A program made the position numbers and the translations under genes. 59,747 nucleotides of DNA from Gammaproteobacteria bacterium (GTDB taxonomy: Bacteria > Pseudomonadota > Gammaproteobacteria > Pseudomonadales > Halieaceae), in NCBI GenBank assembly GCA_030428835.1, contig JAUIEP010000013.1, forward strand, positions 1 to 59,747. Direction: 5' to 3'. The notes beneath the pieces are model-generated. The model made no database searches. It worked only from the letters and a program-made list of their open reading frames with translations, and was not told the DNA's origin. Shown one piece after another: positions 48,840 through 52,073 of the stretch. The number at the start of each line of letters is the position of its first letter. Position 1 is the first letter of the stretch.

Positions 48840-51800
48840 TCAGTTGCACGCCGCCTGCAGCACGACCTGTTCGTACAGGCTGTGCCCGTGATCCTCGTTG
48901 CCCAGATGCAGGCGTTGTACGTTGTCGTCGAGTTCCGCGAGGCGCTTGCTGCGCTGCTGCTTGCCCGCGGGCGCGTTGTCCACGGGTCGCACCGGCGCGG
49001 CCGCGTAGGCGCGCTCACGCTGGCCGGCGGGGGCGTCTCCATACAGGGTGTTGCGCACGCGCGGCTCGCGCCCCACGCGCCGGATACAGGCCTCGATGTC
49101 CACGGGACGCCACTCCTGCCCGTGGCTCGCGCCGGCCGCGCGCGTGATGCTCTCATTCATGAGCGAGCCGCCGAGGTCGTTGACGCCGGCCCGCAGGCAG
49201 GCGGCAACACCCTCCGGCCCCATCTTCACCCAGGAGGCCTGGATGTTGTCGATCGCGCCGTGCAGGACCAGTCGCGCAACCGCGTGCATGAGGAGGGCCT
49301 CGCGGAACGTCGGGCCGGGACGGGCGCGACCGCGCAGGTACATGGGCGCTTCCTGCGCCACGAACGGCAGCGGCACGAACTCCGTGAAGCCGCCGGTGGC
49401 GAGCTGCAGTTCGCGCACCGCCAACAGGTGCGCCGCCCAGTGGCGGGGCTCCTCGACGTGCCCGTACATGACGGTCGCGGTGGTGCGGATACCCTCGGCG
49501 TGTGCCGCGGCCATCACCTCGAGCCACTGCGCGGCATTGATCTTGTCCGGGCAGATCTGTGCGCGAACCTCGTCGTGCAGGATCTCAGCGGCGGTTCCCG
49601 GCAGCGTGTTCAGGCCGGCGGCCCTGAGCCGTCGCAGGTAGGTGCGCAGGTCGAGGCCGAGCGTGGCGGCGCCCTGCCACACTTCCAACGGCGAGAATGC
49701 ATGGATATGCATGCCCGGGGTGGCGGTGCGGACGGTGGCGACAATATCGAGGTAGGTCTGCCCGGTGTAATCCGGGTGAATGCCGCCCTGCAGGCACACT
49801 TCCGTGGCGCCGCGTTGCCAAGCCTCGGTACAGCGCGCCGCCAGTTCCTCGGCGGTGATGTCGTACGGTGCGCCGCGCAATTCCGCGTTCTGACCGCCCT
49901 TGGAGAAAGCGCAGAAACGGCACTTGAAGTAGCAGACGTTGGTGTAGTTGATGTTGCGATTGACGATGTAACTCACGGTGTCGCCGTTGACCCGCTCGCG
50001 CAGCGCATCGGCGTGCCGGACAACGTAGCTGAACTCCGGGCCGCGCGCGGCGAACAGCCGGGTAACCTCTTCCTGTGTCGGGGTGTCCCCCGCCTCGCAG
50101 CGCGCGACAATCGCCTCCAATTCGCCGCTGACATGCACGGGTGCCGTATCCAGCAGGGCCATGTCGAGCGCGGGTGGCGCGGTATCGCGACCGGTGCTCC
50201 AGCCGTCGCGGCGCGCGAAACCCTCGGCGTCGGACAGCGCCGCGACCCGAGGGCGCACGGACTCGTCCAGCCATACCTCCCCCGCGCGGGCGTAGGCGGG
50301 ATAGATTGTCAGCCGTTGTTCCAGGAACTTGCCGGCCGTCGCGGTCTCCGCCGCGAGGCGATCGAGGTGCGGCCAGGGCGCCTCCGGGTTGACGTGATCC
50401 GGCGTGAGGGGCGACACCCCGCCCCAGTCGTTGATACCGGCGGCGACGATCTGCGACAACACGCCGGGACTGAGATTGGGCGGCGCCTGGATGCTCATCC
50501 CCGCGCCGAAGACCAGCCGGGAGACGGCGATAGTCCACAGCAGCTCGTCGAGATCGGGTTCGGGCGCGGCGGCCATCAGCGTGTCCGGCTTGGCGCGGAA
50601 GTTCTGTACGATGATTTCCTGCAGGTGGCCGTGTCGCTCGTGTACCGCGCGCAGCGCGAGCAGCGACTCGATGCGCTCCGTGCGCGTCTCGCCGATGCCG
50701 ATCAGTATGCCGGAGGTAAACGGCACCGCCGCGCGCCCCGCCAGTTCCAGCGTCTCGAGACGCCGCGCGGGATCCTTGTCGGGCGAGCCGTAATGCGGCA
50801 TGCCCTTCTCGCACAGGCGCGGCGCGGCGGACTCCAGCATGATGCCCATGGAAGCGCTGACCTCGCGCAGGCCCGCGATCTCCTGCGCGGTCATGCAGCC
50901 GGCATTGATGTGCGGCAGCAGGCCTGTCTCGTGCAGCACCCGCGAGGCCACCTCGCGCACATAGTCGAGCGTGCTCGCGTAGCCCATCCCGGCCAGAGCC
51001 CGGCGCGCTGCGCCGTAGCGCAGTTCCGGCTTTTCGCCGAGCGTGAACAGCGCCTCCTGGCAACCCATGCGCGCGCCCTCGCGACACAGTTCCAGCACGT
51101 CTTCAACGGGCATGAAGGGTTGCTCGATGCGCCTGGGAGTCTTGGCAAACGTGCAGTAGTGACAGACATCGCGACAGAGCCGGGTCAGCGGAATGAACAC
51201 CTTGCGCGAATACGTGACGAGGCTGCCGTGCCCCCGGTCGCGCAGTCGCCCCGCCACATCGGCGAGCGCCGCGGTATCGTCCATACCTGCGAGGGACAGC
51301 GCTTCAGCGTCGCTTGGCCGGTGACCCAGGAGCAGGCGCTCACGCAAATCCCCCCAGCGCGGCGGCTCGCCGGTATCCGCAGCCAGCCTTCCTGCATTCT
51401 CGGCGGGTACCTGCGCCGCCGCGATGCGCGCGGCGAGCTCGGGCTGCGCCAACAGGCCGCGGGTCGCACTGTGCACCGCGGTGCCCAGGCGGCGCAGCGC
51501 CAGCAGCAGATCAGCGGGTTCGTCGACGTCGAGCCCGGTACCGATGCGATCGAGTGTGCTCGACGCAAGACCCGCGCGCTCCGCGCTCGCCAGGTGCCCG
51601 GCATAACTGTCGCGCCCGAAACACAGCTGCGGCGCGGCGCCTGCCTCGAACACGAGCAGGTTGGTGCCGCTGCCGTGCCGGTCCGGCGCGATCACGACAC
51701 CGCCGCGCTGTGCCTGCAGCGACAGTGCCGCACCGATATCCGCTTCCGCCAGCAGCGGCAGGTCGGCATGCAGGACCAGCACCTGGCCGTCCCCGATTCG

Positions 51801-52073
51801 CTGGGCACCACGGGACAGCACCGCGTTGAGGCCGCTGCCGCCGAGTTCGACCTCGGACCAGCAGTCGGCGCCGCACTCAACCGCCAGCGCCGCCGCGGCG
51901 GCATCGTCGGTAATGAGGTTAACGCTCTCGACCCGCGGGTGGCGCACCAGCACCGACAACACGTCCGAGGCCATGGCGCGCGCCAGGGCGCTGCGCTCGG
52001 GCGGCGTGAGCAACGTCGCCAGGCGCGACTTCACCTGGTCCAATGATTTCAGTGCTACCAGCGCATGTGCCAC
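48840..52073 (-). CDS. Fused CofC-CofG-CofH: phospho-acid guanylyltransferase plus FO synthase
   Basis: 1077 residues, ATG 52073. Residues ~1-205 match CofC ([40 protein letters not shown] [14 protein letters not shown]), which activates a three-carbon phospho-acid with GTP. A radical SAM domain follows with Cys300/304/307 (CRDVCHYC), as in CofG, and a second with Cys714/718/721 (CYFKCRFC) and GGIHPDYTG, as in CofH. CofG and CofH together make 5-deazariboflavin FO from tyrosine and a ribitylaminouracil. CofG/CofH fusion is known as FbiC; I do not recall CofC being fused to it. Starts 3 bp after cofD. Frame is intact throughout, with no sign of an assembly join. Confidence 0.93.

Follow-up and report, generated by a model that had tools for sequence, protein, structure and literature searches.

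In the window, i.e. the whole stretch of 59,747 nucleotides analyzed here, which derives from a member of the Halieaceae, a single open reading frame encodes the CofC guanylyltransferase of F420 biosynthesis together with both radical SAM modules of FO synthase. The fused cofC-cofG-cofH gene (48840..52073, minus strand, as are all features below) begins with GTG, encodes 1077 aa and contains no internal stop codon. The profile searches confidently identified all three domains in this one stop-free frame, in agreement with the preliminary description: CofC, a GTP:phospho-acid guanylyltransferase (aa 4–194, 51492..52064; PF01983 and TIGR03552, 142.4 bits against the NCBIfam cut-off of 105), CofG (aa 287–610, 50244..51215; TIGR03550, 494.7 against 213) and CofH (aa 666–1012, 49038..50078; PF19288 and TIGR03551, 543.8 against 374). 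The full-length CofGH model NF006687 also scored above its cut-off (1139 against 1018 bits), which places the protein among FO synthases, while Pfam reported CofC, Radical_SAM in two stretches and CofH_C. Between CofC and CofG lies a linker of about residues 195–250 (51324..51491), in which a CofC C-terminal tail is joined to a CofGH N-terminal head. Both CxxxCxxC motifs (C300–C307 at 51153..51176 in CofG and C714–C721 at 49911..49934 in CofH) and the catalytic residues of CofC are intact, as had also been claimed, and the existence of the triple open reading frame is confirmed. The best overall explanation, to which we assign a probability of roughly 0.8, is that it encodes a working tri-domain enzyme, of a kind produced repeatedly by in-frame loss of a coupled gene boundary and retained as the joining is tolerated.

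The CofC domain can be aligned to the solved CofC/FbiD chains 7p97, 6bwg and 2i5e. In FbiD the metal ligands and substrate contacts are D116, D188, D190, K17, L92, T148, G163 and S166 (PMC8764529; this and the other papers are cited from excerpts). Mapped by hand on the alignment, this set is preserved in the fusion, which keeps K9, L82, D104, T137, G153, S156, D182 and D184. Among the 30 distinct fused rows of the survey described below, D104, D182, D184, S156 and G153 as well as both CxxxCxxC motifs are kept in every one, K9 in 29 and T137 in 23, with serine replacing it in the other 7. In the CofC of M. rhizoxinica, an enzyme for 3-phosphoglycerate (3-PG), the diagnostic serine is S162 (PMC8764529). 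The fusion has glycine 153 at that position and lacks the serine, so a 3-PG-type CofC, and with it 3-PG-F420, was rejected; the residue comparison suggests that the substrate is probably PEP or 2-phospholactate. An aspartate occupies this deciding position in 21 of 105 unfused CofC sequences, suggesting a possible further substrate type.

The fusion is the fourth gene in an operon of the order npdG-cofE-cofD-cofCGH. The NADPH:F420 reductase gene npdG (53835..54608; TIGR01915, match from residue 38) is listed with a start about 35 residues ahead of the family match. It is followed by cofE (53035..53799; TIGR01916), which has one base in common with cofD (52076..53035; TIGR01819, 275.5 bits). 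That cofD adjoins the fusion had been correctly described, but the spacing is 2 bases and not 3 bp (cofD ends at 52076, the fusion starts at 52073). The cofE product is a single-domain protein with the Pfam F420_ligase domain only; since it has no FbiB-type nitroreductase part, a dehydro-F420 reductase, if needed, would be encoded elsewhere. Eight nitroreductase-family matches occur in the source genome, none of which could be assigned to this reaction. The fused gene provides the only CofC above the cut-off in this genome: a second CofC was sought and rejected, the two further matches (21–23 bits) falling below it, and the whole fusion used as a query gave one match.

CofC makes the guanylylated phospho-acid, CofG and CofH make FO, and CofD joins both (PMC8498797). 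The preliminary description had stated that the product of CofC is used by CofD and not by FO synthase; this is incomplete, for FO also goes to CofD (PMC8498797), so that the enzymes producing the two substrates of CofD are united in the fusion. We infer that all three domains are catalytically active and that they are translated here as one chain: the N-terminal domain would activate the phospho-acid with GTP, the CofG and CofH domains would produce FO, and CofD, encoded just upstream, would join the two products.

At E 1e-3 the query matched 63 of the 96 relatives and 92 of the 140 family genomes searched (overlapping sets). At E 1e-100 it matched 103 of 390 genomes of the order, 15 of 369 of the class and 4 of 398 of the phylum (also overlapping), as well as 53 of 337 genomes of the class that includes Alphaproteobacteria (that of genome G988). 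The loci classified came from the genome searches plus 80 loci, of 588 relatives, in named genomes, and a locus was called fused if CofC and CofGH lay within one stop-free frame. With 9 duplicate loci and the short row L166 left out, there are 160 distinct CofGH rows, comprising 30 fused, 105 with adjacent cofC and 25 with no cofC close by in the fetched stretch. A further ten loci, one of them a duplicate, were taken from the class of G988 and bring the fused loci to 34 of 169 distinct FO-synthase loci, a figure that is not a prevalence, as many loci were picked since they looked fused. Within the window's order the fused loci occur in six families, and within the class of G988 in three. A database search for CofC-FbiC-type fusions and their mapping on a tree had been proposed earlier; on the gene tree discussed below they prove recurrent. 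All four fused relatives scanned (L021, L131, L138 and L185) pass the CofC, CofG and CofH cut-offs. Several candidates were rejected: G506 and G630 have long frames (1745 and 1187 aa, respectively) that contain no CofC, those of G442 and G988 have CofC and CofGH in different frames, and G1306 and G1480 have separate genes. The class of G988 contributes four fused loci. In one of them, L182, cofE and cofD lie upstream of the fused gene; near L185, L186 and L187 no cofD match was obtained in the fetched 6–6.5 kb with the window's CofD as the only query. The fused, Seongchinamella-type genome G111 contains extra CofGH-like pieces (G111:C4:118-1716 and C29:12841-13608), perhaps a second FO synthase. 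Two loci (L035, L049) come from metagenome-assembled genomes titled Klebsiella pneumoniae; their CofGH groups with other gammaproteobacteria and the titles look like mislabels.

Comparison of the three junctions of the operon points to a property of the cofC-cofGH boundary. Of the adjacent gene pairs in the same operons, none of 112 cofE-cofD and none of 129 cofD-cofC pairs is fused, against 30 of 135 cofC-cofGH pairs. Under a crude drift model, in which inter-domain DNA was shuffled and the frame was random, 18.2, 18.6 and 6.8 fused rows, respectively, would be expected against the 0, 0 and 30 observed; the relatedness of the rows makes this comparison indicative only. The simplest reading is that only the cofC-cofGH junction tolerates fusion. 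Between the end of the domain and the stop codon lie a median of 41 residues in CofC, 6 in CofE and 11 in CofD, with domain ends depending on how the queries were trimmed, and the family matches of CofD and CofC start within the first eight residues. Recurrence is probably due mainly to a CofC C-terminus and a CofGH N-terminus long and variable enough for harmless joining. Of the 105 separate rows, 19 already have both genes in the same frame with exactly one stop codon between cofC and cofGH; in such rows (including L037, L038, L044, L048, L055 and L059) one substitution or read-through would yield a fusion. In nine pairs of fused relatives (L185/L186 left out), dN/dS is 0.11–0.29 for CofC (8 pairs, 1 undefined), 0.10–0.46 for the linker (all 9) and 0.03–0.09 for CofGH (7 pairs, 2 undefined), some synonymous distances being saturated or undefined; these values indicate that fused relatives maintain CofC and that their linker evolves like coding sequence. 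They come from the relatives and not from the window, which has no relative close enough for such a comparison.

Could the fusion be an adaptation rather than a tolerated event? One chain would then supply both FO and the short-lived guanylylated phospho-acid, and equal amounts, or docking of CofD on the CofC domain, would accelerate or protect the convergent step. Equal amounts and a metabolon with CofD had been raised as possibilities in the preliminary description. The adaptive reading is possible though doubtful. CofC/FbiD works only together with its partner CofD/FbiA and yields an unstable product (PMC8498797, PMC8764529), the CofC active site is kept, and fusion is confined to the cofC-cofGH junction, above the crude drift expectation of 6.8 in 135 rows. 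However, the two other junctions have shorter inter-domain spacers, so the missing fusions may be structural; the 30 fused rows amount to about 11 changes and not 30 events; three fused loci have no cofD match nearby; and even the two FbiC domains seem to work by diffusion, which is how their intermediate is thought to be exchanged (PMC8498797). We therefore rate simple tolerance higher than selection for co-supply. Slightly more doubtful still is the specific proposal that the convergent fusions reflect selection for a two-substrate supply enzyme that holds CofD via its CofC domain, so that the convergent step would take place within a complex. If this were true, the separate cofC and cofGH products would normally touch as well.

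The CofGH tree of 160 rows needs 11 changes between the fused and unfused states, 9 of them forced by well-supported branches, and the 169-row tree needs at least 15, of which 10 are forced; both are quick trees with long-branch warnings, and in all such parsimony counts the rows are not independent and fusion is indistinguishable from fission. More careful trees were built for the Halieaceae from 46 hand-picked rows, which include 17 of the 19 distinct Halieaceae fusions and omit near-copies, the long-branched g12 rows and certain other rows. The CofGH tree of this set has 6 changes, 3 of them forced, and the concatenated CofD+CofC+CofGH tree 5 changes, 4 of them forced. In AU tests, whose groups were named after the first trees had been seen, a single clade of the 17 Halieaceae fusions was rejected (p 6.7e-5). 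A clade of the window with the Seongchinamella-type fusions was rejected on CofD+CofC+CofGH (p 0.020, or 0.041 with G023), whereas CofGH alone did not reject a shared fused ancestor (p 0.16; 0.10 with G023). The placement of the window is moderately supported, both with the unfused L016 (88/92) and in a group with 19 unfused rows (92/98). The gene trees do not recover the window's genus as a single clade, although such a clade is not rejected (p 0.20). From one fused group to another the linkers vary in both length and sequence, in agreement with separate fusion events. The joining of cofC and cofGH was repeated in relatives, it seems independently, to judge from these trees and linkers. The fusion in the window lineage looks recent, since in all 13 congeners checked at the level of open reading frames cofC and cofGH are neighboring but separate genes that lie in different frames; of the remainder of the 17 congeners, three look separate by the match table and one is incomplete.

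The same distribution could have been produced by a small number of old fusions, or a single one, that were later split again in several lineages, a history for which the change counts leave room as they give no direction. This history is unlikely: the coupled boundaries of the unfused kin, in which cofGH most commonly starts at offset -1 or +2 from the cofC stop (47 of 105 separate rows), would have to be re-created again and again, and the linkers of the fused groups are not alike. Repeated fusion is favored over fission because of these coupled boundaries.

The window's linker itself retains the outline of two joined genes. A CofC tail like that of several congeners runs, in one frame, into the CofGH head (e.g. 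DWQTLQEHLRQG). Unfused kin have a coupled cofC/cofGH boundary, e.g. GTGA, ATGA, TAATG or TGATG; in the fusion neither stop nor start is left at that place and the linker contains no ATG. The gene probably arose in the window lineage through in-frame loss of the boundary between adjacent, translationally coupled genes. An open in-frame cofC-cofGH junction has a mean chance of 0.05 per junction (shuffles, random frame) and is by itself weak evidence for a true fusion; better evidence is provided by the tail and head in one frame, the lost coupled boundary and the same CofC-CofG-CofH architecture in the single-contig genomes G048, G049 and G206. The AlphaFold2 model, calculated from an alignment of 27 of the 30 distinct fused rows, has a mean pLDDT of 83.3 and a pTM of 0.74. 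By ten-residue blocks, pLDDT is 86–95 for CofC (aa 1–190) and 91–95 for aa 241–290, and falls to 52–56 for aa 221–240, a pattern between confident blocks such as would be predicted for a flexible hinge. Other weak stretches are aa 558–566 and 715–735 in the radical SAM parts and the last 46 residues.

Another unlikely complication is that CofGH is also made alone by internal initiation, the fusion then being only partial. In-frame GTG200, TTG208 and TTG243 are present in the window's linker, the last of them close to the former start, and ATG, GTG or TTG occurs in 31 of 34 fused linkers (ATG in 18). Shine-Dalgarno-like matches precede a candidate start in 6 of the 34, but none does so in the other 28, the window's linker among them. 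Hardly credible, finally, is a sequencing or assembly indel that joined two genes in a draft genome. The source genome is indeed a 319-contig draft, and two features of the linker would allow an indel there to part the genes: beside TTG243, near residue 244, there is a stop in the +2 frame, and GC at third positions is 0.71 in residues 221–255 versus 0.83–0.86 in the domains. However, neither an ATG nor a coupled boundary is found where the ancestral one stood, the lowest GC in linker frame 0 is still at the second codon position, and fusions were independently found in single-contig genomes. The frameshift at residues 205–240 considered in the preliminary description is without support and improbable.

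The fusion is built from ordinary parts. It has the CofG-CofH order, the motifs and the full-length NF006687 match of FbiC/CofGH; an N-terminal CofC, however, is not mentioned for FbiC in the excerpts of PMC8498797 and PMC6450877. Its first domain agrees with CofC/FbiD in the above-threshold TIGR03552 score, the PEP and metal contacts and the glycine at the 3-PG-diagnostic position, whereas CofC/FbiD is described as single-domain (PMC8764529) and the window's CofC is fused to FO synthase. The F420 fusions described in PMC8498797 and PMC6450877 are CofG-CofH and CofE-nitroreductase; the latter, FbiB, is likewise a fusion of F420-pathway enzymes (same sources) but joins different ones, and the window's CofE is single-domain. 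Fusions like the window's are visible in public genomes, e.g. Seongchinamella unica (L021, NZ_SMSE01000004.1), which has the same domain order in one open reading frame; its linker is shorter and different, and the trees suggest that it is probably independent of the window's. The preliminary description had raised the possibility that many identical fusions were already described: they are widespread in the genomes, as counted above, but no description of a CofC-FO synthase fusion was found among the literature matches listed, mainly open-access, which leaves absence from print unproved, nor in the excerpts of PMC8764529, PMC8305020 and PMC7253369. Two branches of the F420 pathway meet at CofD, and the naturally joined protein offers a ready test for a complex of CofC, FO synthase and CofD. 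It could also serve as a one-gene part for F420 production in heterologous hosts. For annotation it is a warning: in these bacteria, a protein labeled CofGH or CofC may in fact be an enzyme of three domains.

Directly downstream of the fusion lies a uracil-DNA glycosylase gene (48134..48835, start approximate; PF03167). Of the 160 rows, 50 have such a gene directly 3' of their FO synthase gene, and most of these rows belong to the Halieaceae part of the tree. An F420 precursor may serve a photolyase (PMC8305020), and a link between the FO synthase locus and DNA repair via this neighbor is conceivable. A C-terminal motif, ..QVVLMAACN or ..AACD, follows a variable tail in 42 of 160 CofGH rows, fused or not; it lies at 48840-48900 in the window and, in Halieaceae, just ahead of the uracil-DNA glycosylase gene.
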